A stretch of DNA of 64,000 nt from Chitinophagaceae bacterium (GTDB taxonomy: Bacteria; Bacteroidota; Bacteroidia; Chitinophagales; Chitinophagaceae): contig CANGTN010000007.1 of the NCBI GenBank assembly GCA_947456805.1, forward strand, positions 1 to 64,000, in the 5' to 3' direction. Made by a program: the position numbers and the translations under genes. This document shows positions 13,599-42,923 of this stretch, piece after piece. Position 1 is the first letter of the stretch, and each line of letters begins with the position of its first letter. Below the pieces are notes generated by a model, which worked only from the letters and a program-made list of their open reading frames with translations, was not told where the DNA came from and did not search any database.

Positions 13599-14099
13599 AT
13601 GGCAACGATAGACTTTAATCAAATGTTGGTCAACAATGCTGATTTTTTAAAGCCATTTGCATTTACACTTACAAGAGACAACGAAGCAGCAAAAGATTTG
13701 ATGCAGGAAACAATGTACAGGGCAATGGCGAACAAGGACAAGTATAATGTTGGTACAAATATTAAAGCCTGGTTGTATACCATCATGCGTAATATTTTTA
13801 TTAATAACTATCGTCGTAAAAGCAAACAACAAGTAATTTTTGACGATTCTCCTAACGATTTTTTATTAAACATTCAACAAGGTGCTGTTGCAAATGAAGC
13901 AATTGCAACACTCAATATGAAAGAGGTACAAGAGGCAATCTATCAACTTCCCGAGATTTTTAAAACGCCTTTTCTTTTAAACTTTGATGGCTATAAATAC
14001 AATGAAATTGCAGAAATGCTGGAAGAACCTTTGGGAACCATTAAAAGCAGAATTCACTTTGCAAGAAGACTACTCAAAGCACAAATAAACAGACATTAA
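13599..14099 (+). CDS. ECF-type RNA polymerase sigma factor
   Basis: Alternative sigma factor of 166 residues. Region 2 lies at about 15-80 (LTRDNEAAKDLMQETMYRA, then IKAWLYTIMRNIFINNYRR). Region 4 lies at about 105-160, with a helix-turn-helix reading YKYNEIAEMLEEPLGTIKSRIHFARR. No anti-sigma gene is adjacent. It lies 27 bp before crtI in the same direction, so it may be co-transcribed with, and control, the carotenoid genes. Similar ECF-like regulators are common in this phylum without a dedicated anti-sigma factor. The inverted repeat just before the start may serve autoregulation. Confidence 0.9.
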   Translation: MATIDFNQMLVNNADFLKPFAFTLTRDNEAAKDLMQETMYRAMANKDKYNVGTNIKAWLYTIMRNIFINNYRRKSKQQVIFDDSPNDFLLNIQQGAVANEAIATLNMKEVQEAIYQLPEIFKTPFLLNFDGYKYNEIAEMLEEPLGTIKSRIHFARRLLKAQINRH

Positions 14100-14126
14100 A
14101 AATTTCTGCTTAACTTTCACGCATCA

Positions 14127-15620
14127 ATGGGTAAAAAAGTAATTGTTATAGGTGCCGGTTTTGCCGGTTTATCTGCTGCATCTTTCATGGCTAAAGCCGG
14201 CTGGCAGGTAACTGTTTTAGAGAAAAATGCAATCCCCGGAGGCAGGGCAAGACAAATGAAAGCCGAAGGGTTTACATTTGATATGGGCCCAAGCTGGTAT
14301 TGGATGCCTGAAGTTTTTGAAAGATATTTCAACCAATTTGGTAAAAAAGTTTCCGATTATTATACACTCGAAAGATTAGATCCATCATACAGAGTTTACT
14401 GGCATGATGAACCAATGGATATTCCTGCCAATTACGAAGCGCTCAAAGAATTATTTGAATCTATCGAACCTGGAAGTGGTACATCTCTGGATAAATTTTT
14501 AGCAGAAGCTGCTTACAAATATGAAGTTGGTGTTAATAAACTTGTTCACAAACCCGGTCAAACACTTACTGAATTTTTAGATTGGGAAGTAATAACAGGT
14601 GTGTTTAAGCTGGATGTGTTCAATTCCATGAAAAGCCATGTGGCAAAGCATTTCAGACATCCTAAGTTAAAAGAACTCATGGAGTTTCCGGTGCTTTTTT
14701 TGGGAGCATTACCCGAAAAAATTCCTGCTCTTTATAGTTTAATGAATTATGCAGACATCAAAGGAGGAACTTGGTATCCTAAAGATGGCATGTATAGCAT
14801 TGTAAAAGGAATGCATCAACTGGCAACAGAGTTGGGAGTTGAGTTTCGTTTTAATGAAGAAGTTCAGCAAATTGACTTAAAAGGACAATCAGCAAAATCG
14901 GTTACTTCAAAAAATACAACCAATCAGCTGATTTCTACTTATGAAGCCGATGTAGTTATTGGCGGTGCAGATTATCATCATATAGAAACAAAATTATTGC
15001 CTGCACAATTTCGCAGTTATACAGATAAGTATTGGGAAACTAGAATCATGGCACCTAGTTGCTTGATTTACTACGTAGGACTCAATAAAAAAATTAAAAA
15101 TATTTTACACCATTCTTTGTTTTTTGATACTTCCTTCGAAGTTCATGGCAATGAAATTTATACTACCAAAGAATGGCCAAGTAATCCTTTGTTTTATGTA
15201 AGTGCAACAAGTGTCTCAGATACTACAGTTGCACCTGAAGGTCATGAAAATTTATTTTTCCTGATACCTGTTGCTACAGGCTTAAAAAATGATACTGAGG
15301 ATATTCGGGATCAATATTTCAATTCAATTGTTGAAAGAATGGAAAAGCATTTGGGGGAGCCAATTTTGCAACATGTTGTTTATAAAAAAAGTTATGCGCA
15401 TAGTGATTTTATAGCGGATTACAATGCCTTCAAAGGCAATGCTTATGGGTTGGCAAATACATTAATGCAGACAAGTATTTTAAAGCCTGCTTGCAGGAGT
15501 AAAAAAGTAAAAAATTTATTTTATACAGGACAATTAACAGTTCCCGGTCCGGGTGTGCCGCCTTGCCTAATCAGCGGTGAAGTGGTTGCAAAAGAAGTGG
15601 TCAGGCATTTTGATAATTAA
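14127..15620 (+). CDS. crtI: Phytoene desaturase (CrtI type)
   Basis: FAD-dependent enzyme that desaturates phytoene stepwise to lycopene at the membrane. The 497-residue protein begins with the dinucleotide-binding motif VIGAGFAGLSAA. It continues with GGRARQ and FDMGPSWYWMPE. It ends with the bacterial CrtI signature YTGQLTVPGPGVPPCLISGE. Length fits the family. It follows the sigma factor by 27 bp and is followed after 107 bp by crtB. A second, paralogous desaturase (crtD) lies further on; the first copy, beside crtB, is the better candidate for phytoene. Confidence 0.92.
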   Translation: MGKKVIVIGAGFAGLSAASFMAKAGWQVTVLEKNAIPGGRARQMKAEGFTFDMGPSWYWMPEVFERYFNQFGKKVSDYYTLERLDPSYRVYWHDEPMDIPANYEALKELFESIEPGSGTSLDKFLAEAAYKYEVGVNKLVHKPGQTLTEFLDWEVITGVFKLDVFNSMKSHVAKHFRHPKLKELMEFPVLFLGALPEKIPALYSLMNYADIKGGTWYPKDGMYSIVKGMHQLATELGVEFRFNEEVQQIDLKGQSAKSVTSKNTTNQLISTYEADVVIGGADYHHIETKLLPAQFRSYTDKYWETRIMAPSCLIYYVGLNKKIKNILHHSLFFDTSFEVHGNEIYTTKEWPSNPLFYVSATSVSDTTVAPEGHENLFFLIPVATGLKNDTEDIRDQYFNSIVERMEKHLGEPILQHVVYKKSYAHSDFIADYNAFKGNAYGLANTLMQTSILKPACRSKKVKNLFYTGQLTVPGPGVPPCLISGEVVAKEVVRHFDN

Positions 15621-15692
15621 TAGATCAAGTGTGCGTTTATAAAATAATATTTTTTAGTAAATGCAATAGTATTAATTTTAATAAAATTGAAA

Positions 15693-15713
15693 AGTTGGTT
15701 TAAGAAACCGACT
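15693..15713 (+). promoter_or_regulatory. Hairpin in the crtI-crtB gap
   Basis: AGTTGGTTT (15693-15701) pairs with AAACCGACT (15705-15713) over nine positions with one G-T wobble, loop AAG. It is followed by a T-rich stretch and sits 14 bp before the crtB ATG. It could attenuate transcription into crtB or shape its leader. Confidence 0.45.
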
Positions 15714-15727
15714 ACATACTTTTTCTT

Positions 15728-16570
15728 ATGAATAATATGCAACATTTTCTTGAAGTTAGCGAAGCTTGCAGTAAGTATACTACTGAGCGTTACAGCACTA
15801 GCTTTTCTTCGGCAATCAGGTTGCTGCATAAAGAAATCAGACAGCCAATTTTTAATATCTATGGATTTGTACGTTTTGCAGATGAAATTGTAGATACATT
15901 TCATGGTTTCGACAAATCTTCATTGTTGGCTGATTTTAAGAAAGAAACTTATGATGCAATTGAAAGAAAAATAAGTTTAAATCCCATACTGCACAGCTTT
16001 CAGACAACTGTAAATAAGTACAATATTGACCATGCCTTAATCGAAGCATTTTTGCACAGCATGGAAATGGATTTGAGTGAAAAAAAATATGACAGGGCAG
16101 GTTACGATGAATACATTTATGGAAGTGCTGAAGTGGTGGGTTTGATGTGTTTGTTTGTATTTTGTGATGGAGATAAAGCTTTGTATGAATCTTTAAAACC
16201 CGGCGCAAGAAGTTTGGGTGCAGCTTTTCAGAAAGTAAATTTTTTAAGAGATTTAAAAGCCGATTTTGAAGGCTTGGAAAGGGTTTATTTTCCGGGATGT
16301 GATTTCAGAAATTTTACAGAAAGCGATAAACGAAATATTGAGTCCGACATTCAAAAAGATTTTGATGATGCTTATGCAGCAATACTTGAATTACCTATTA
16401 AATCTAGGTTTGGGGTATATGTAGCTTACAAATATTATTTGTCTTTGTTCAAAAAAATTAAGCAACTTGAAGCACAAAGAATCATGCAGGAACGCATTCG
16501 AATTCCTGATTACGGTAAAATGTTTATTGTCGCAAAAGCAGGACTTCGTTCTCAATTAAATATTTTATGA
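15728..16570 (+). CDS. crtB: Phytoene synthase
   Basis: Condenses two geranylgeranyl diphosphates to phytoene, the first committed carotenoid step. The 280-residue protein has both aspartate-rich magnesium-binding motifs, DEIVD (52-56) and DLKAD (175-179, within NFLRDLKAD). It also has the squalene/phytoene synthase pattern GFVRFADEIVD and YFPGCDF. Length is typical. It is in the same orientation as crtI and separated from it by a 107-bp gap that holds a hairpin. Confidence 0.94.
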   Translation: MNNMQHFLEVSEACSKYTTERYSTSFSSAIRLLHKEIRQPIFNIYGFVRFADEIVDTFHGFDKSSLLADFKKETYDAIERKISLNPILHSFQTTVNKYNIDHALIEAFLHSMEMDLSEKKYDRAGYDEYIYGSAEVVGLMCLFVFCDGDKALYESLKPGARSLGAAFQKVNFLRDLKADFEGLERVYFPGCDFRNFTESDKRNIESDIQKDFDDAYAAILELPIKSRFGVYVAYKYYLSLFKKIKQLEAQRIMQERIRIPDYGKMFIVAKAGLRSQLNIL

Positions 16571-25656: not shown

Positions 25657-27591
25657 ATGGAGATAACTCCCGGAAAATTACTTGCAGGTATCAATAGCCC
25701 TGATGATTTAAAAAAAATCAGTAGAGAAGAATTACACCAGGTTTGCAATGAATTGCGTCAATATATTATTGATATTGTAAGTGTACACGGTGGACATTTT
25801 GCTGCAAGCTTAGGCGTAGTAGAACTAAGTGTGGCATTGCATTACGCCTACAATACACCATACGACCAGTTGGTTTGGGATGTAGGTCATCAGGCATATG
25901 GGCATAAAATTTTAACTGGTCGCAGAGATAATTTTCACACCAATAGAAAATACAATGGCTTAAGCGGATTTCCAAAACGTAGCGAAAGTGAATATGATAC
26001 TTTTGGAGTAGGACATTCCTCTACATCAATATCTGCTGCATTAGGAATGGCCATTGCATCAAAATACAAAGGCGAAAACAGAAAAAGTGTTGCAATTATT
26101 GGCGATGGGAGTATGACAGCAGGTATGGCTTTCGAAGCCATGAATCATGCCGGCGTTGCCGAAGCTGATATGCTCGTAATATTGAACGATAACTGCATGA
26201 GTATTGACCCAAATGTGGGTGCTTTGAAAGAATATTTAACCGACATCACCACTTCTCATACTTACAATAAAGTACGTGATGATGTTTGGAAGTTAATGGG
26301 TAAACTCCCTATTGGTAAAAGTTTCACCAGAGAGATGGCTAGTAAGTTAGAAGCAAGTGTAAAAGGAATGGTGAGTAAAAGCAGCAACTTATTTGAGGCA
26401 TTAAATTTTAGATATTTTGGCCCGATTGACGGACACAATATTACCAAGTTGGTAGATACATTAAAAGATTTGAGAGATATTCCGGGTCCTAAATTATTGC
26501 ATGTAATTACTGTAAAAGGAAAGGGTTATGCATTGGCAGAAAAAGATCAAACCAAATGGCATGCACCAGGTTTATTTGATAAAGTAACCGGCGAAATATT
26601 TAAGAAACCAATACTTGCACCGCAGCCTCCAAAATACCAGGATGTTTTTGGACATACCATGATTGAGTTAGCAGAAATGAATGATAAAATAATGGCAGTT
26701 ACTCCGGCAATGCCAAGTGGTTCTTCCTTAAAATATATGATGGAAAAAATGCCACATCGTGCTTTTGATGTAGGTATTTGCGAGCAACATGCAGCAACCT
26801 TAAGTGCAGGTTTGGCAACCCAAGGAATGAAAGTATTTTGTAATATTTATTCTTCATTCATGCAGCGTGCATATGATCAAGTAGTGCATGATATTGCGAT
26901 ACAAAAATTACCTGTCACATTATGTTTAGATAGGGCCGGGTTGGTAGGCGATGATGGTCCTACACATCATGGATGCTATGACATTCCATACTTCCGTTGT
27001 ATTCCCAATATGATTATTGCTGCTCCAATGAACGAGCAGGAATTAAGAAATTTAATGTACACTTCACAATTAAAAACTACCACACTTCCTTTTGTCATTC
27101 GCTATCCACGTGGCGAAGGTGTTATGCCCGAGTGGAGAACTCCATTCGAAGCAATTGAAATTGGTAAAGGCAGAAAGATTAAAGATGGAGAAGGTATTGC
27201 TATTTTATCTTTCGGTCATCCGGGCAATTTTGTACAAGCTGCTATTCGCGAACTGAAAACAGAAGGCATCAATCCGGCACATTACGATATGCGTTTTGTA
27301 AAACCAATTGATGAAGCTTTGTTGCATGAAGTGTTTGGTAAATTTAATAAAGTAATTACCATTGAAGACGGAACAGTTGTTGGCGGATTCGGCAGTGCTG
27401 TTTTAGAATTCATGGCACAACACAATTATACAGCGCAGGTTAAAATGCTGGGTATTCCGGATAGATTGGTAGAACATGGAACCCCAAAAGAATTGCACAG
27501 AGAATGTGAGTACGATGCACAAGCAGTTGCCAATGCCGTTCGTGAAATGAAGCATGCCGAAGTGGCTGTAAAAAGTAAAGTAGTTAATTAA
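25657..27591 (+). CDS. dxs: 1-deoxy-D-xylulose-5-phosphate synthase
   Basis: Thiamine diphosphate enzyme that joins pyruvate and glyceraldehyde 3-phosphate, the first step of the MEP isoprenoid pathway. The 644-residue protein has VWDVGHQAYGHKIL, the TPP motif GDGSMTAGMAFEAMNHAG followed by LNDNCMS, and the transketolase-like DVGICEQHAATLSAGLA and DRAGLVGDDGPTHHG. Length is normal. It stands alone, divergent from the LytS kinase, and would supply precursors to the carotenoid cluster and to GGGP synthase in this window. Confidence 0.97.
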   Translation: MEITPGKLLAGINSPDDLKKISREELHQVCNELRQYIIDIVSVHGGHFAASLGVVELSVALHYAYNTPYDQLVWDVGHQAYGHKILTGRRDNFHTNRKYNGLSGFPKRSESEYDTFGVGHSSTSISAALGMAIASKYKGENRKSVAIIGDGSMTAGMAFEAMNHAGVAEADMLVILNDNCMSIDPNVGALKEYLTDITTSHTYNKVRDDVWKLMGKLPIGKSFTREMASKLEASVKGMVSKSSNLFEALNFRYFGPIDGHNITKLVDTLKDLRDIPGPKLLHVITVKGKGYALAEKDQTKWHAPGLFDKVTGEIFKKPILAPQPPKYQDVFGHTMIELAEMNDKIMAVTPAMPSGSSLKYMMEKMPHRAFDVGICEQHAATLSAGLATQGMKVFCNIYSSFMQRAYDQVVHDIAIQKLPVTLCLDRAGLVGDDGPTHHGCYDIPYFRCIPNMIIAAPMNEQELRNLMYTSQLKTTTLPFVIRYPRGEGVMPEWRTPFEAIEIGKGRKIKDGEGIAILSFGHPGNFVQAAIRELKTEGINPAHYDMRFVKPIDEALLHEVFGKFNKVITIEDGTVVGGFGSAVLEFMAQHNYTAQVKMLGIPDRLVEHGTPKELHRECEYDAQAVANAVREMKHAEVAVKSKVVN

Positions 27592-35003: not shown

Positions 35004-36827
35004 TTAAGAATCAATTTTGGAAGTTGAATTTTTAAAATGATTCGATAAAATCGTTGCTCTTGCAACACCGATTACTTTGCTTATTTCTTCAAAATTTGCT
35101 GCTTTGATATTTTTTACAGATTTGAATTTTTTCAATAAATCATCGATTGTTTGTTTGCCAATACCGGAGATTGTTTCTAGTTCGTTTTTAAAAGTTCCTT
35201 TGCTGCGTTGGTTTCTGTGAAAGGTAATACCAAAGCGGTGTACCTCATCTCTTATCATTCTAATCAGCTTTAAACTGTCGCTGTCCCAACTCAGTTTCAA
35301 AGATTGTTGATCTCCGGGAAAGAAGATTTCTTCTTCGTTTTTTGCAAGTCCAACCACGGTAACTTTCCCAGTTAAATCCAAAGCTTTGATGCTTTCCATT
35401 GCTGCACTCAATTGTCCTTTGCCACCATCTATAATAATGAGTTGAGGTAGTTCTTTTTCCTCGTCTATTAATCTTTTGTATCTACGAAATACAACTTCTT
35501 TCATTGTAGCAAAATCATTAATTCCATCTACTGTTTTTACATTAAATCTCCGGTAATTTATTTTATCGGGCATTCCATTTTTAAAACAAACCATTGCACT
35601 TACAGGATAACTTCCTTGAAAATTTGAGTTATCAAAACATTCAATATGTGTAGGTAATTCTTGCAGTTGAAGATTGCTTTGCAGTTCGTACAAAACTTTC
35701 TTTTTTTCCATATCACTCTTTCCTTCCAATCGTAATATTTTTTTCTTTCGAAGTTCTTCTTTGAAATAATTTACATTTTTTATTGAAAGGTCTAATAGAT
35801 GTTTTTTGTCGCCTACTTTTGGGATTGTGAAAGTAATATTTGTGTCAGCATAATCAATCGGAAAGGGAACAATTATTTCTTTGGATAAACTATTAAATTT
35901 CAGTCTCAGATTGCTAATTGCAAAGCTCAAAATTTCTTCGTCTGATTCTTCTAATTGGCTAACTAATTCTACCGTGTGTGTATGTACAATTGTACCATTT
36001 TGTACCATCAAAAAATTGACATACGCCGTTTCATTTTCACGAAGAATAGAGAACACATCCATATTGGTAAGATACTTACTTACAATGACAGATTTAGATT
36101 GATAGCTTACTAAATTGCTGATTTTTTTCTTGAGTGATTCAGCTTTTTCAAATTCTAAATTAGCTGCACACTCAATCATTTCTTTTTTGAATTCAGTAAT
36201 TACATAATTTAAATTTCCTTTTAGCATATTGCGAACTTGCTGCAAACTTTCATTGTATTCATCCAATGTTTGTAGTCCTTCGCAAGGACCTTTGCAATTT
36301 CCTAAATGGTATTCCAAACAAACTTTGAATTTATGCTTTGCAATATTTTGTTCAGATAAATTGAGCTTGCAAGTTCTAAGCGGAATATTTTGTTTGATAA
36401 AATCTATCAATTCGTAACCGGTAGATATATTAGTAAAAGGACCTAAATATTCTGAGCCATCATTGAATTTTCTTCGGGTAATGAAAACCCTGGAAAAAGT
36501 TTCTTTTTTTATAACGATGTATGGATATGTTTTATCATCTTTTAAATTGATATTGTATTTCGGTTGATGATTTTTGATTAAAGCATTTTCTAATAAAAGT
36601 GCATCATGTTCACTGTTTACAATTGTAAATTCGATGTGATTTATTTTACTGACTAACTCTTGTGTTTTTAGATTGTCTATATTTTTATTAAAGTAGCTGC
36701 TGATTCTTTTTTTTAAATTCTTTGCCTTACCAACATAAATTATTTTTTTACTTACATCAAAGTACTTGTAAATACCAGGGTCTTGGGGTAAGGTGTAAGC
36801 AATATTTTGAAATTCAGCACTCGTCAT
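35004..36827 (-). CDS. uvrC: Excinuclease ABC subunit UvrC
   Basis: Nuclease that makes both cuts around a damaged base in nucleotide excision repair. The 607-residue protein has an N-terminal GIY-YIG domain (PGIYKYFD, then KIIYVGKAKNLKKR), a UVR motif (about 205-235, LEFEKAESLKKKI), the C-terminal RNase H-like nuclease (HIECFDNSNFQG, LIIIDGGKGQLSAA) and helix-hairpin-helix repeats (ISGIGKQTIDDLLKKF). It lies 7 bp after a lipoprotein gene on the same strand. Confidence 0.96.
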   Translation of the reverse strand: MTSAEFQNIAYTLPQDPGIYKYFDVSKKIIYVGKAKNLKKRISSYFNKNIDNLKTQELVSKINHIEFTIVNSEHDALLLENALIKNHQPKYNINLKDDKTYPYIVIKKETFSRVFITRRKFNDGSEYLGPFTNISTGYELIDFIKQNIPLRTCKLNLSEQNIAKHKFKVCLEYHLGNCKGPCEGLQTLDEYNESLQQVRNMLKGNLNYVITEFKKEMIECAANLEFEKAESLKKKISNLVSYQSKSVIVSKYLTNMDVFSILRENETAYVNFLMVQNGTIVHTHTVELVSQLEESDEEILSFAISNLRLKFNSLSKEIIVPFPIDYADTNITFTIPKVGDKKHLLDLSIKNVNYFKEELRKKKILRLEGKSDMEKKKVLYELQSNLQLQELPTHIECFDNSNFQGSYPVSAMVCFKNGMPDKINYRRFNVKTVDGINDFATMKEVVFRRYKRLIDEEKELPQLIIIDGGKGQLSAAMESIKALDLTGKVTVVGLAKNEEEIFFPGDQQSLKLSWDSDSLKLIRMIRDEVHRFGITFHRNQRSKGTFKNELETISGIGKQTIDDLLKKFKSVKNIKAANFEEISKVIGVARATILSNHFKNSTSKIDS

Positions 36828-36834
36828 TCAATAA

Positions 36835-37413
36835 TTAATTTTTCAAATTCCATTGTATGTTTGTACGGGATAATTTTCCTTTACCATTTGCTTCAGCGTA
36901 TTTTACCAGATATAGTTCTTTGCCAATTATCCATGTATAATTTTCGGTGAAACTAGAATCAACTTTCATATAAAGTACTTTTATATCTATACGTTTGAGA
37001 TTGTTATTGTTTCCATCTAAATAAATATCAACATTTTTTATTGTGCTATTATCAGACTTTGTTGAGTAAGTCATGACAATACTATTGGTGGTTAGATCTC
37101 TAAAAACTGTTTCTTGAAAATATTTTTTAATAGCACTGTCTGTAATATCTTTTGATGTAAACTGATTAACAATATTTTTGAAATAATCAGTGTTAATTAC
37201 TTGTGGCTTTTTATTTCCACTACTGTCTGTAAAAATTCCTAAAAATGTTTTTTTGGTTTTTAATAAACTATCTGCTTCTGTTTGAATGTAGTAGGTATAA
37301 GGATAAAATATGGTGTTGTCAGCGTTGGTATTTTTGGTGGATTCTTTATTTTTTTCTTTTGAATTGCATGCTAAAATTAATGTTGCGATACAGATAAAAA
37401 ATAGTTTGTTCAT
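36835..37413 (-). CDS. Lipoprotein of unknown function
   Basis: 192 residues with a lipoprotein signal (MNKLFFICIATLILAC, lipid cysteine at 16), then a Lys/Asn/Thr-rich linker and a mostly beta body (YYIQTEADSLLKTKK, DVYILDGNNNN-like turns, YTWIIGKELYLVKY). No known domain recognised. It is 7 bp upstream of uvrC on the same strand, so the two may share a transcript, but a common role is not implied. Confidence 0.75.
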   Translation of the reverse strand: MNKLFFICIATLILACNSKEKNKESTKNTNADNTIFYPYTYYIQTEADSLLKTKKTFLGIFTDSSGNKKPQVINTDYFKNIVNQFTSKDITDSAIKKYFQETVFRDLTTNSIVMTYSTKSDNSTIKNVDIYLDGNNNNLKRIDIKVLYMKVDSSFTENYTWIIGKELYLVKYAEANGKGKLSRTNIQWNLKN

Positions 37414-37481: not shown

Positions 37482-38897
37482 TTATTTAAACAAGCGTTTG
37501 GTGAAACCAATTCTGAATCCATAATCCATCCTAAATTCTTTGATAGGATATTGGTCATTATAGGTAGGTAAATGTTGGTAACGAATTTGAGGTCCTGCAT
37601 ATAGTTGATAGTTTCCGGCTTTGTAAGTAAGGTTTAGTTGAGCACTACTGTTAATGTTCCATTTTCTTAAAAATGGAGTGCCATCTGTATAATATTTATA
37701 ATCAGTTGAAATTAGATACACATTTTTATTCAGTGTAATTGTGGGTTCTATACTTCCACCAAAAGTTAGACCAAATTTTTTATAATGTAAAAAGTCCCAT
37801 TGAATACCAATTGGAACAGATACTTGGTACAGCTTTGTATCTAATTGAGTTTCGGCATAACCAAGGTTTGCGCTAAGATTGGTAATTTGATTGATGGTAT
37901 CTAATCTGTTATTTCTTATAATGGCAATACCTGCAACTGTTGATCCGCTTTTATAACTATCAATATAGTATTTACGTATGTTGTATTGTAATCCAGTTTT
38001 AAATTTTAAATTGTTTGTAATGTGGTACATGATACCAATTCCTATCTCAGAACCCATTGCTGCTTTATGGTTCACTACATCATTTATATTTTGTGTGTAA
38101 GCTGGTGCAATTGGTCCGTTTGCAATAGGAGCAGGTTCAAAATTATTTCTTAGCTTGTCATCTAATAATTTTCTGTAACTGATAGAAGGTGTCACATAAA
38201 TATCTAGCTCAAATTTAGAAGATTTATTTTTTTGCAAAGATGGGATTTGCAACTGCGGTTCGGTTAAATGAATCTTTGGATTTTTAATAGTTGGGAAATA
38301 GATTTTTTTTGCAGGAATATTGGTCAACGCTTTATTGGAAATTAATGCTATTTCACTCGAGTTATTAATATTTAATGAAACTTTTTCGATTTTATTCAAC
38401 TTGTTTGAAGTGTTATTAAATTTATTTTCTTGATATACGTTTTGTGTTTTATTTGAAGCAATTGCAACATTGGATACTACTACATTTTGTTTTGCATTTG
38501 TTTCAATATCATCAATTTTACTATTATTATAAACCCTTGTTTCTACTGTATTTGATGTAGTTTTTTGATAGTTCAGTTTATGATTTATATCTGATTTTTT
38601 ATTATTGTTTAAGCCGGAAAAGAAAGGATAGGTGTTTTGAAATGAATTTAAATTACGACCACTATTTGTTTGCAATTTTTTATATTGTAATTCAGAAGGA
38701 TAATCATTTAAAATAGTAGAAATACATAATGCTGTAGTCATCAATACAGCTGTGATTGTAAGTGCGGGCCATTGTTTCTTACCATGCAATTCTTTATGAA
38801 TGTTTCTCCAGATATGATCGGAGGGGTACATTCTGTGTTGTGAGGTTTCTCGTTGTAAAAATTCCTCCAAGCTATTGTCAAAGTTGTGATTTTCCAT
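37482..38897 (-). CDS. Membrane-anchored protein with C-terminal outer-membrane beta-barrel-like domain
   Basis: 471 residues with an unusual layout. Residues 1-45 are soluble and contain HIWRNIHKELHGKK, resembling the short cytoplasmic head of Bacteroidota anti-sigma-like proteins. A single helix follows (about 45-66, LTITAVLMTTALCISTIL), then a long Asn/Lys/Thr-rich linker (about 70-225). The C-terminal 240 residues have alternating beta-strands (YVTPSISYRKLL, GIGIMYHITNNLKFKTGLQY, DYGFRIGFTKRLF) like a PorT/OMP_b-brl barrel. It starts 22 bp after an ECF sigma factor gene and could regulate it. A role as anti-sigma factor is inference. Confidence 0.65.
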   Translation of the reverse strand: MENHNFDNSLEEFLQRETSQHRMYPSDHIWRNIHKELHGKKQWPALTITAVLMTTALCISTILNDYPSELQYKKLQTNSGRNLNSFQNTYPFFSGLNNNKKSDINHKLNYQKTTSNTVETRVYNNSKIDDIETNAKQNVVVSNVAIASNKTQNVYQENKFNNTSNKLNKIEKVSLNINNSSEIALISNKALTNIPAKKIYFPTIKNPKIHLTEPQLQIPSLQKNKSSKFELDIYVTPSISYRKLLDDKLRNNFEPAPIANGPIAPAYTQNINDVVNHKAAMGSEIGIGIMYHITNNLKFKTGLQYNIRKYYIDSYKSGSTVAGIAIIRNNRLDTINQITNLSANLGYAETQLDTKLYQVSVPIGIQWDFLHYKKFGLTFGGSIEPTITLNKNVYLISTDYKYYTDGTPFLRKWNINSSAQLNLTYKAGNYQLYAGPQIRYQHLPTYNDQYPIKEFRMDYGFRIGFTKRLFK

Positions 38898-38919
38898 TTT
38901 CGTATTCGGTAATCCTTAT

Positions 38920-39492
38920 TTAAATACTACCCATCCAATTCAGTTCAGACTTCGGATTGTTGATGATTCGTTTCTTAATTAAAATTGTTTCTAACATTGC
39001 CTTTGCTCTTGTGTATTGACTTCGGCTTGTGCTTTCTTCAATATCAAGCAAATTGCCAATTTCTTTATGGCTGTATCCTTCTATTGCATACAAATTTAAT
39101 ACTGTTTTGTAACCTAACGGGAGTAGCTTAATACATTCAACCACTTGTTTTGCTTGCATAATGCTTGGTATAGTTTCCTCTTTTACATAAACTGTTGTTG
39201 CATAGGTGATATCAACATTGTCTGAAAATTTTTTATTCTTTTTCAAAAAATTAATGCAGGTATGTACAACAATTCTTCTGATCCATCCTTCAAATGCTCC
39301 TTTGTTTTGGAAAGTATGTATCTGGCTGAATATTTTTATAAAAGCCTCTTGCAGCATGTCTTCCGCATCTTCCCTGTTGTGCGCAAACCTGTAACTAACG
39401 CTTAGCATTTTAGGACTATACCTGTTATATAATTCTTTTTGCGAAGCTGCATCATTTTGCAAACAACCGGCAATAATAGATTGTTCTGTCAT
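38920..39492 (-). CDS. ECF-type RNA polymerase sigma factor
   Basis: 190-residue alternative sigma factor. Region 2 spans about 20-90 (NRYSPKMLSVSYRFAHNREDAEDMLQEAFIKIF, GWIRRIVVHTCINFLKK). Region 4 spans about 125-180 with the helix-turn-helix YSHKEIGNLLDIEESTSRSQYTRAK. It is the first gene of a minus-strand pair with the membrane-anchored barrel protein and is divergent from the DUF1800/DUF1501 genes. The two directions share a 131-bp control region. Confidence 0.92.
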   Translation of the reverse strand: MTEQSIIAGCLQNDAASQKELYNRYSPKMLSVSYRFAHNREDAEDMLQEAFIKIFSQIHTFQNKGAFEGWIRRIVVHTCINFLKKNKKFSDNVDITYATTVYVKEETIPSIMQAKQVVECIKLLPLGYKTVLNLYAIEGYSHKEIGNLLDIEESTSRSQYTRAKAMLETILIKKRIINNPKSELNWMGSI

Positions 39493-39623
39493 ACAGTTAC
39501 ATTCATTTTATTCCCATAAAATTAGGACATTCATCTAGAAAAATGTGCTGCTTGATTACAAACATTAAAATAATTGATTTTAATTGGTTTTTTGTATAAC
39601 TTACGGTTTCTAATTTTTTGCTT

Positions 39624-41285
39624 ATGGAAACAACTAAAGATTTGCAATCAATAATTGTAGAATCGGATAACAATACTCCTAACGGTAGAACCAACACAAC
39701 ACTTAATCCATATACAGGTTCTTGGACAGAAAATGAAGTAATACATTTATTAAAAAGAACAATGTTTGGCGCAAGTAAAGCAGATGTAGATTATTTTAAA
39801 AGCAAAACACTTAATCAAACAATTAATGAGTTATTAAATCCAACTGCAACTCTTCCTTTGCCCCCTGTAAAAGAATATAGTTCTGCATCTGCACTAACAC
39901 AACCCGATACATTAATAAACGCAGGACAAACTTGGGTAAATGATCCGAATGTTGATGGTACAATTGCAAGCCTTAGAAGATCTTCATTTAAAAAATGGTG
40001 GATGGGTGTTATGATTAATCAGGATAGAAGTATCAGAGAAAAAATGACGCTTTTCTGGCACAATCATTTCGCTACGGAAACGACAGATGTCAGCTATCCA
40101 AATTATGTATACTTCCATCATAATTTGCTTCGGACCAATGCTCTTGGAAATTTTAAAACATTAACTCGGGCTATTACATTGGATCCTGCAATGCTAGTTT
40201 ATTTAAATGGACAAGTAAATACTGCTACTGCACCCGATGAAAATTATGGAAGAGAGTTGCAGGAGTTGTTTTGTTGTGGCAAAGGCCCCGATTCAAAATA
40301 CACGGAAGATGATGTGAAAATGGCCGCTAAAGTGTTAACAGGTTGGCGTAATAACAGTACAACATTCTCTTCTTATTTTACCTTGTCACGCCATGATACA
40401 ACTAGTAAACAATTTTCATCTTTTTACAACAATACTATTATTACAGGCAGAACAACTGCTAATGCGGGTGATGCAGAATTGGATGACTTGTTAAATATGA
40501 TTTTTGCTACCAATGAAGTTTCAAAATATATCTGCAGAAGAATTTACAGGTGGTTTGTATATTATGAAATTGATGCAAATACAGAAGCCAATATCATAAC
40601 ACCATTAGCCAATATATTTAAAGCCAATAATTATGAAATTAAACCGGTATTAGATGCGTTGCTGAAAAGTGAACATTTTTTTGATGTTGCTAATATGGGT
40701 TGTCAAATCAAAAGTCCTGTTGATTTGGTAGTAGGTATGTGCAGAGAACTAAATGTACAATTTCAACCAAGAACTGATTACATTTCTAATTATGGACATT
40801 GGAGTTATTTGGCTACATGGGCGGCTAATATGCAGCAAAATATTGGCGATCCTCCCGATGTGAGTGGTTGGAAAGCTTATTACCAAGAACCACAGTTTTA
40901 TGAAATTTGGATTAATAGCGATACGCTGCCAAAGCGCAATCAATTTACAGATACCATGTGCCTAACCGGGTATACTTTCAATTCTAAAAAGATTATTATT
41001 GATGCTGCTGAGTTTGCTAAAAGTTTATCCAATCCCGGAGATCCAAATATTTTATTGAATGATATTTTGAAATATTTATACAGGATTGATTTGTCTGCTG
41101 CTTCCAAAGCTCAAATTAAAAAAGATATTTTATTAGCAGGTCAGGTGAGTGATTATTACTGGACAAATGTCTGGAATATATTTATATCAACACCTACAGA
41201 TACAACGAATGCTACAACAGTAAAAACAAGGTTAAGAGATTTAGTAAAATATTTAATGAATTTAGCTGAGTATCAATTGGCATAA
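39624..41285 (+). CDS. DUF1800 domain-containing protein
   Basis: 553 residues from ATG 39624 (an in-frame TTG at 39618 is less likely). It has the DUF1800 hallmarks: VIHLLKRTMFGASKADVDYF, KMTLFWHNHFATE, NYGRELQELFCCGKG followed by YTEDDVKMAAKVLTGW, and ICRRIYRWFVYYE. No clear signal peptide is seen at the N-terminus, which begins with a polar stretch. It is followed by a DUF1501 gene 57 bp downstream, the standard partner. Function is unknown; the pair is common in Bacteroidota and Planctomycetota and is thought to be exported. Confidence 0.9.
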   Translation: METTKDLQSIIVESDNNTPNGRTNTTLNPYTGSWTENEVIHLLKRTMFGASKADVDYFKSKTLNQTINELLNPTATLPLPPVKEYSSASALTQPDTLINAGQTWVNDPNVDGTIASLRRSSFKKWWMGVMINQDRSIREKMTLFWHNHFATETTDVSYPNYVYFHHNLLRTNALGNFKTLTRAITLDPAMLVYLNGQVNTATAPDENYGRELQELFCCGKGPDSKYTEDDVKMAAKVLTGWRNNSTTFSSYFTLSRHDTTSKQFSSFYNNTIITGRTTANAGDAELDDLLNMIFATNEVSKYICRRIYRWFVYYEIDANTEANIITPLANIFKANNYEIKPVLDALLKSEHFFDVANMGCQIKSPVDLVVGMCRELNVQFQPRTDYISNYGHWSYLATWAANMQQNIGDPPDVSGWKAYYQEPQFYEIWINSDTLPKRNQFTDTMCLTGYTFNSKKIIIDAAEFAKSLSNPGDPNILLNDILKYLYRIDLSAASKAQIKKDILLAGQVSDYYWTNVWNIFISTPTDTTNATTVKTRLRDLVKYLMNLAEYQLA

Positions 41286-41342
41286 ATAACAACCCTGTGA
41301 AGTGTTTTTTATTAAAGACACTAAGCAATAAAAAATAGTATT

Positions 41343-42923
41343 ATGAAACGCAGAGATTTTCTTAAAAATACTGTTCCTGTGGGTATTATGTTACCTGCAT
41401 TATTTAATGGATTTTCACTTAAAGCATTTGGCGCAACTTCACCTTTATTAGACGCTCTTTTGTTACCTGTAACAGAAACAGATCATGTGTTGGTATTGGT
41501 GCAACTTACCGGTGGAAATGATGGTATCAATTCAGTCATTCCATTAGAGTTTTACAGCAATTATAATAATGCAAGAACAAATATTGCTATTCCTGAATCA
41601 AAAGTTTTGAAGCTCGATGGAACTACGAAAATAGGCTTTAACCCAGCTATGACCGGCTTGCAAACTTTATTTAATGAAGGCAAATTGAAAGTTATTAATA
41701 GTGTTGGATATCCTACACCAAGTTTTTCTCATTTCAGAGCAACGGATATTTGGATGAGTGCCTCCGATTCAAATCAAGCTGTTGCAAGTGGTTGGGCAGG
41801 TAGGTACTTGAATTATGAATATCCTAATTTCCCTAATGGATATCCAAATGCTACGATGACAGATCCATTGAGTATTCAAATTGGTTCAATAACATCTCTT
41901 ACTTCACAAGGTCCGTCAGTAAATATGGGAATGAGTATTAGCAATACTTCCAGTTTTTATAATTTAATTAATGGTGTTCAAGATCCAGCCCCAAACACCA
42001 AAGCGGGTAAGGAACTTACATATGTTAGAAATATAGCTCAGCAAACACAGCAATATGCAACAGTTATTAAAGAAGCTGCAGCAAAAGTTACACAGCAAAG
42101 TACCTATCCATCTAATAACACTCTGGCAGACCAGCTTAAAATTGTTGCGAGGCTTATCAAAGGCGGATTAAGAACTAGAATATATATGGTAAGCTATGGT
42201 GGCTTTGATACCCATTCATCACAAACAAATTCAACCGATACCACAACTGGCGCACATGCCAATTTGTTACGAAATGTAAGTACCGCCATCAAAGCTTTTC
42301 AAGATGATTTAAAATATTTGAATATTGAAGATAGAGTAATTGGTATGACTTATTCCGAATTTGGCAGAAGAATAAAAAGTAATGCAAGTGGCGGTACAGA
42401 TCATGGTTCGGCTGCGCCCATGTTTTTGTTTGGAAAAAATATTTTACCCGGAGTATTGGGTGATACACCAAAAATTCCAGCTGCCGCAACTGTAAATGAT
42501 AATCTCCCTTATCAATATGATTTTAGAAGCATATACGCAACATTATTAAGCAATTGGCTTTGTGTTAAGGAAACGGATTTGCAACAAGTAATGCTTAAGA
42601 ATTTTCAATTGCTTCCATTGGTAAATGCAGGAGATTGTAACAAGGGTATTCCAAATACTAGCGGACTTAATTTAATTACCAATTATCCCAATCCATTTAC
42701 CAATAACACTACCATCAGATTTACAACTGCCGGAGGACATACAATGGTACAGATAATGGATACAATGGGAAGAGTATTGATGAATTTGGTAGATAAGGAA
42801 TATACAAATGCAGGAACTTATATTGTTACATTTGAAAGTGGCGCATTACCAATGGGTGTTTATTATGCACGTTTGCAAAACATGGCTGTACAACAGGTAA
42901 GAACGATGTTGAAAGTAAGGTAG
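41343..42923 (+). CDS. DUF1501 protein with Tat signal and T9SS type A sorting domain
   Basis: 526 residues. The N-terminus MKRRDFLKNTVPVGIMLPALF is a twin-arginine (Tat) signal. The DUF1501 body belongs to the sulfatase/alkaline-phosphatase-like fold (LVQLTGGNDGINSVIP, SHFRATDIWMSA, MVSYGGFDTHSSQ, MTYSEFGRRIKSN, DHGSAAPMFLFG). The last 75 residues form a T9SS type A sorting domain (NYPNPFTNNTTIRF, QIMDTMGRVL, LPMGVYYARLQN). The protein would be folded in the cytoplasm, cross by Tat and then reach the surface by T9SS. It pairs with the DUF1800 gene. Confidence 0.92.
   Translation: MKRRDFLKNTVPVGIMLPALFNGFSLKAFGATSPLLDALLLPVTETDHVLVLVQLTGGNDGINSVIPLEFYSNYNNARTNIAIPESKVLKLDGTTKIGFNPAMTGLQTLFNEGKLKVINSVGYPTPSFSHFRATDIWMSASDSNQAVASGWAGRYLNYEYPNFPNGYPNATMTDPLSIQIGSITSLTSQGPSVNMGMSISNTSSFYNLINGVQDPAPNTKAGKELTYVRNIAQQTQQYATVIKEAAAKVTQQSTYPSNNTLADQLKIVARLIKGGLRTRIYMVSYGGFDTHSSQTNSTDTTTGAHANLLRNVSTAIKAFQDDLKYLNIEDRVIGMTYSEFGRRIKSNASGGTDHGSAAPMFLFGKNILPGVLGDTPKIPAAATVNDNLPYQYDFRSIYATLLSNWLCVKETDLQQVMLKNFQLLPLVNAGDCNKGIPNTSGLNLITNYPNPFTNNTTIRFTTAGGHTMVQIMDTMGRVLMNLVDKEYTNAGTYIVTFESGALPMGVYYARLQNMAVQQVRTMLKVR

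Follow-up and report, generated by a model that had tools for sequence, protein, structure and literature searches.

The ECF sigma gene and the gene directly after it in the window (the whole 64,000-nucleotide stretch of Chitinophagaceae DNA that was analysed) are best explained as a sigma/anti-sigma switch of the Reo/Dma type, a reading to which we assign a probability of about 0.78. The partner protein would be an anti-sigma factor that spans both membranes, with a head, an inner-membrane helix, a linker, and an outer-membrane barrel in a single chain (Table 1). This proposal is supported by the constant pairing of the partner with the sigma gene, the conserved promoter, the relation of head and barrel to other such proteins at the profile level, and the model of the barrel. 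The idea of a spanning anti-sigma factor is already known, as it is the published Reo/Dma model in the accessible parts of PMC13088901, PMC9308784, and PMC13114119. As far as the literature covered goes, the Chitinophagaceae branch and its promoter are new, and so is the head, which has no Pfam entry and is also carried by proteins lacking a barrel, although the PNAS 2024 Dma1 and 2013 EcfO papers may hold part of this. A literature search on Chitinophaga ECF sigma factors, anti-sigma factors, and the outer membrane found nothing.

Table 1. Features of the sigma/partner locus and its neighbours, in window positions.
Feature	Position	Strand	Basis
ECF-type promoter GCAGC-N17-TGTC, 5′ of sigma	39526..39551	(-)	pattern search
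ECF sigma factor, 190 aa	38920..39492	(-)	ORF call and Pfam
Partner, 471 residues: head, inner-membrane helix, linker, and barrel	37482..38897	(-)	ORF, alignment, AlphaFold2
Cytoplasmic head, residues 1-43, two predicted helices, putatively sigma-binding	38769..38897	(-)	alignment of 67, model
Single inner-membrane helix, residues 44-64, basic residues before it	38706..38768	(-)	hydropathy, model
Linker, residues 65-228, mostly disordered in model, sequence unconserved, presumed periplasmic	38214..38705	(-)	model, alignment
Predicted 8-stranded outer-membrane barrel, residues 229-468	37494..38213	(-)	model, fold matches, Pfam of relatives
Predicted outside loop 3, residues 389-412	37662..37733	(-)	conservation; topology read from model
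Lipoprotein, weak LolA/LolB-like fold match, not part of module	36835..37413	(-)	context, model, fold search
uvrC (presumed), conserved neighbour	35004..36827	(-)	context

The sequence-only reading had placed an ECF sigma gene and a partner gene at 37482-39492, and both open reading frames were confirmed there. The sigma protein has the Pfam domains Sigma70_r2 (E = 8.1e-18) and Sigma70_r4_2 (E = 6.9e-11), and among the 25 NCBIfam matches listed for it, only the general sigma70-ECF model is above its cut-off. The order on the minus strand is sigma, partner, a lipoprotein gene, and a gene that we take from its sequence to be uvrC, with 22 nt between the sigma stop and the partner start. A single-protein search matched the partner in 99 of 147 Chitinophagaceae genomes. 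Sixty-nine of these genomes provided the 69 distinct loci examined, and at every one a same-strand sigma gene lies immediately 5′ of the partner, with a gap of -4 to 76 nt. In an overlapping set of gene contexts, where one contig is counted twice (L070 and L087), sigma adjoins the partner in 80 of 82 rows, and the remaining two (L121 and L162) are adjacent beneath a longer antisense ORF, giving 82 of 82. Among the 80 loci kept, the closest ones come from Chitinophagaceae MAGs, and Sediminibacterium, Hydrotalea flava, and Segetibacter are represented among the rest. The genome of the window itself (2.4 Mb, 128 contigs) has one partner of this kind by the single-protein search and eight ECF matches over the Pfam cut-off; no adjacent partner of this kind was seen for the other seven.

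How is the partner built? In an alignment of 67 full-length relatives, the mean frequency of the commonest residue is 0.55 in the head and 0.47-0.69 in the barrel strands, and 0.19 in the linker. This pattern is more than chance, since head and barrel are conserved across the family and the linker alone is not. Trp-30 of the head is invariant in all 67 sequences, Pro-25, His-38, and Trp-43 are nearly so, and the family consensus of the head has the signature P-S-x-x-V-W-x-x-I. The AlphaFold2 model has helices at residues 8-19, 27-38, 44-64, and 69-80, with moderate confidence in the head (blocks of 70-80) and pLDDT <50 across residues 78-193. The short head and one inner-membrane helix that had been read from the sequence are borne out by hydropathy and the AlphaFold2 model, which give a single hydrophobic segment in the partner. 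Of the 67 relatives, 64 likewise have one hydrophobic segment in their first 120 residues, and the other three are below the threshold used. Pfam and NCBIfam searches of the partner gave no recognised anti-sigma domain and no FecR match at E ≤ 1. Pfam reported eight families over the 67 members, none assignable to the head, and a sequence comparison of the partner with solved structures gave one chance-level match, to a designed protein.

The linker had been described as 150 residues long and rich in Asn, and this description holds in part. It is indeed long (164 residues in the model, 168 by the hydropathy cut) and contains 18% Asn, but the Asn content ranges from 1 to 20% over the 67 relatives, so the Asn-richness is a matter of composition rather than a feature. 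By the hydropathy cut, its length in the relatives is 130-287 residues, with a median of 175. An unconstrained sequence together with a minimum length fits what would be expected of a tether crossing the periplasm. A candidate linker motif (INPxxxTxxTI-like) was rejected: it occurs in 13 of 67 relatives (0.33 in shuffled sequences), nearly all of them close to one another, and is absent from the window protein. A looser form, in 43 of 67 against 29.8 in shuffled sequences, is a minor effect.

The C-terminus was earlier described as barrel-like. The structure prediction gave a closed 8-stranded outer-membrane barrel and not a soluble β-sandwich, the count of eight being our reading of the predicted model. 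The barrel region has pLDDT values of about 90-98, except near residues 250-270. With Foldseek and VIA-align, residues 226-470 fit the solved outer-membrane barrels NspA (Z = 16.5), OprF (Z = 17.1), and OmpA (Z = 15.9), and the best structural match is a Legionella porin (Z = 17.8, rmsd 4.3). PF13568 (OMP_b-brl_2) was matched by 52 of the 67 aligned family members at E ≤ 0.01. It was not listed by hmmscan for the query partner alone, which scored 25.8 bits in the genome search, below the cut-off of 27. In the model, the short turns lie on the same side as both termini of the barrel, which is the usual outer-membrane plan, so this side would be periplasmic. The predicted outside loops differ in conservation (mean commonest residue 0.28, 0.39, 0.58, and 0.53 for loops 1 to 4). 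Loop 3 is conserved like the strands, and 7 of its 24 positions have values of at least 0.7. Conservation of a loop on the outside suggests that whatever it binds, a partner or a ligand, is conserved too.

A conserved ECF-type promoter was found upstream of the sigma gene. The pattern GCAGC-N14-19-TG[TC]C is present in 116 of 131 distinct upstream regions of up to 220 nt, compared with a mean of 0.285 and a maximum of 2 for shuffled regions. The spacer is 16 in 100 of these, 17 in 14, and 18 in 2, and the second element is TGTC in about 96%. One of the 15 regions without the pattern is only 54 nt long, and several have apparently misplaced starts. When a longer, stricter pattern was searched in ten genomes, there were 39 matches versus 1 for the reversed pattern, and the sigma promoter was among the matches in all ten. 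Thirty loci were taken from this stricter search: 13 are inside ORFs >100 aa, 4 are at the 3′ ends of genes that we take to be adk (3) and rpsT (1), 8 are sigma promoters (two of them the same region), and the remaining 5 lie elsewhere between genes, two of them ahead of SusC-like genes. A second match in the window, at 26012-26039, was rejected as a promoter, as 1.29 matches are expected by chance. Judging from this conserved promoter, the sigma/partner pair is very probably autoregulated. Outside Chitinophagaceae, the strict promoter was found at 2 of 23 loci (0.07 shuffled) and at 0 of 16 Bacteroidales-like loci, which makes it chiefly a family feature. The conserved promoter also makes the regulon predictable and testable.

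The accessible part of PMC13088901 describes Dma1-3 as anti-sigma factors with domains from the cytosol to the outer membrane, found solely in Bacteroidota, with the sigma domain of Dma3 within the same chain and a vesicle phenotype for Dma1 and Dma2 of Bacteroides thetaiotaomicron. Reo, which acts with EcfO in Bacteroides fragilis and Phocaeicola vulgatus, spans from the cytoplasm to the surface, and outer-membrane or envelope stress is the proposed signal, according to the accessible parts of PMC9308784 and PMC13114119. For comparison with the window partner, a reference set was assembled from the genomes taken as Bacteroides-like because they have NigD (8 of the 295 in the class), their sigma relatives, and 12 downstream partners; four of the reference loci (L354-L357) have a NigD_N match. 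Judging from NigD and the architecture, these reference proteins would be Dma/Reo. A plain profile search with the family head at E ≤ 1 found none of the 12 Bacteroidales-like partners, and a barrel profile search found one (L365, 2.1e-4). In hhalign, the head aligned with the Bacteroidales-like heads, a set picked by NigD and missed by the plain search, with a probability of 94.9 (E = 4.4e-8, 34 columns), compared with 8.1 for the reversed control. The barrel profiles aligned with a probability of 90.2 (E = 1.6e-6, 162 columns), compared with 2.2 for the reversed and 0.6 for an unrelated control. Since the plain search misses nearly all of them, the relation to the Bacteroidales-like partners rests on profile-profile comparison.

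The window pair resembles Dma1 and Dma2 in that the gene lies beside an ECF sigma gene, the domains are predicted to run from the cytosol to the outer membrane, and the profiles match proteins of the same plan from NigD-bearing genomes. It differs in coming from Chitinophagaceae and in having its own promoter, the one absent from the Bacteroidales-like loci. With Reo, it shares the predicted span from cytoplasm to surface; however, the Reo regulon includes NigD lipoproteins, and we found only a remote sequence relation, to the NigD-marked relatives. NigD_N had no match in the genome of the window. The membrane plan is also common to Dma3, whereas the window sigma is a separate gene and the Dma3 sigma is fused. 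Two reference loci (L361 and L362) show the Dma3 form, with an ECF sigma domain, a membrane helix, and a C-terminus resembling a barrel all encoded by one ORF (547 and 567 aa). The RpoE-RseA-RseB system is similar in having a sigma factor, a membrane anti-sigma factor, and an envelope signal, but RseA is not known to enter the outer membrane, and the third gene of the window locus is not tied to the pair. The FecR-type anti-sigma factors that work with a TonB receptor differ in the FecR domain, which had no match in the window partner at E ≤ 1 in Pfam or NCBIfam.

In the proposed mechanism, which agrees with the sequence-only reading of a chain that could sense the outer membrane directly and free the sigma factor, the head would hold the sigma factor at the inner membrane and the barrel would sit in the outer membrane. 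The trigger may be something bound at the conserved loops (a ligand or partner), or a barrel that does not fold or insert. The change at the outer membrane would be relayed along the linker, most likely by periplasmic proteolysis, and the freed sigma factor would raise its own operon and a small regulon, which may include a SusC-type transporter. A design of gut Bacteroides would thereby be extended to another family.

The head reaches further than the barrel. Its profile matches 76 of 295 genomes of the class Bacteroidia at E ≤ 0.001, with none of the eight NigD genomes among them. At the 30 best-placed loci of this search, 24 of them outside Chitinophagaceae, an ECF sigma gene is directly upstream in all 30. 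By our reading, the proteins comprise 15 with a barrel by profile, 8 long ones (448-598 aa) without a profile match, 5 short ones (173-255 aa), and 2 truncated at the end of a contig. Tandem heads precede the membrane helix in three of the long proteins (L304, L305, and L309), each of which directly follows a sigma gene. The short ones (L301, L302, L306, L311, and L314) have a head and one helix, with no barrel by profile, and each follows an ECF sigma gene. In the accessible part of PMC7406223, a class I anti-sigma domain lies near 6% of Bacteroidetes ECFs, and the gap in recognised anti-sigma domains is thus already known. We tentatively suggest, at somewhat less than even odds, that the head of roughly 45 residues is an unlisted, class-wide anti-sigma domain carried on barrels, on short tails, and in tandem copies, and that the barrel forms read the outer membrane through a conserved partner-binding loop. 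If so, the head would account for many Bacteroidota ECF factors that have no recognised anti-sigma domain, and with the barrel versions a single molecule would be enough for the cell to read its outer membrane. Such a head was not found described in the literature covered, though it may be in the PNAS 2024 Dma1 paper. The head signature offers a way to find such switches where Pfam sees nothing.

These matches bear on two other explanations of the pair. The chain could be cut soon after synthesis, giving an ordinary outer-membrane barrel and an ordinary anti-sigma factor from one gene, with no spanning, and a disordered, unconserved linker is what a cleavable spacer could look like. However, in every one of the 67 relatives the linker reaches a length of about 130 residues or more, which is enough to cross the periplasm, judged by the width of that compartment, and a long C-terminus is found in 23 of the best 30 class-wide head matches (the 15 barrels by profile and the 8 proteins without a profile match). 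Early cutting is therefore unlikely. It is still less probable that the partner is an outer-membrane protein merely co-transcribed with the sigma factor, or activating it, rather than an anti-sigma factor. The lack of a recognised anti-sigma domain in Pfam and NCBIfam would be explained, but an ECF sigma gene precedes the head at all 30 of the best loci, whether a barrel follows or not, and the probable relatives are anti-sigma factors in the accessible parts of PMC13088901 and PMC9308784.

Does the downstream lipoprotein belong to the switch? It comes next after the partner in 74 of 81 context rows, and this conserved operon order had suggested an RseB-like third component. The lipoprotein model is confident (pLDDT 90.9), and the nearest folds are LolB, LolA, and RseB, which make up 14 of 50 VIA rows by hand count. 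The best Z is 6.6; no match reaches a Z of 8 or a Foldseek E of 0.001, and there is no consistent Pfam family. The lipoprotein is present in 128 of the 147 family genomes (a few as fragments); by hand tally, 34 of these are among the 48 genomes with no partner match. In genomes without a partner match, it is directly before uvrC at 15 of 20 loci (the contig begins there at L263). Four of the other five have different neighbours (L257, L265, L266, and L274), and the fifth, L258, is cut off by the contig end. At 7 loci from genomes that keep partner and lipoprotein separate, the lipoprotein stays with uvrC in 5 cases (L278 to L282), with no uvrC nearby at L277 and L283; L284 has all four genes in order. 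At L278, two genes that look to us like SusC and SusD lie between the partner and the lipoprotein. Because the lipoprotein is present without the partner, beside uvrC, it goes with uvrC and not with the pair.

Evolutionary distances at 66 loci were compared after removing the contribution of uvrC, which is an imperfect control. The distances of sigma and head still correlate (r = 0.27, p = 0.02), and the residual correlation of sigma with the barrel is as high, so co-evolution fails to single out the head. Lipoprotein distances show no correlation with those of sigma (r = 0.0) or the head, and they correlate with those of the barrel (r = 0.39, p = 0.001), both of these proteins being fast-evolving. 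A switch on the model of rpoE-rseA-rseB, in which the LolB/RseB-like lipoprotein would be the third part, is thus the least probable explanation, since its gene order, fold resemblance, and barrel correlation are outweighed by the occurrence of the lipoprotein with uvrC in genomes lacking the partner, the low scores of the fold matches, and the missing correlation with sigma or head.

What else might the sigma factor of this Reo/Dma-type pair transcribe? The promoter pattern precedes a SusC-like gene in two genera (G000:C1:55493-55523, at L175, and L194), a possible regulon member. The strict GCAGC form is within 220 nt of 7 of the 30 best SusC-like matches (L197, L198, L200, L210, L215, L222, and L225), where well under one would be expected by a figure borrowed from the sigma-upstream shuffles, in a set built from one promoter-bearing site. 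SusC-type genes as targets of the sigma factor are a lead only, drawn from these upstream patterns.

Two other parts of the window may be noted. Divergent from the sigma gene, at 39618-42923, are a DUF1800 gene and a DUF1501 gene, and the DUF1501 product carries a type IX sorting tail. Beyond sigma, DUF1800/DUF1501 gene clusters are found in 29 of 76 rows and in 24 of 68 rows of the context set. At 13599-16570, another ECF sigma gene is directly followed by two genes that, as we read them, resemble those for phytoene desaturase and phytoene synthase, and the three may form a pigment operon linked to this sigma factor.
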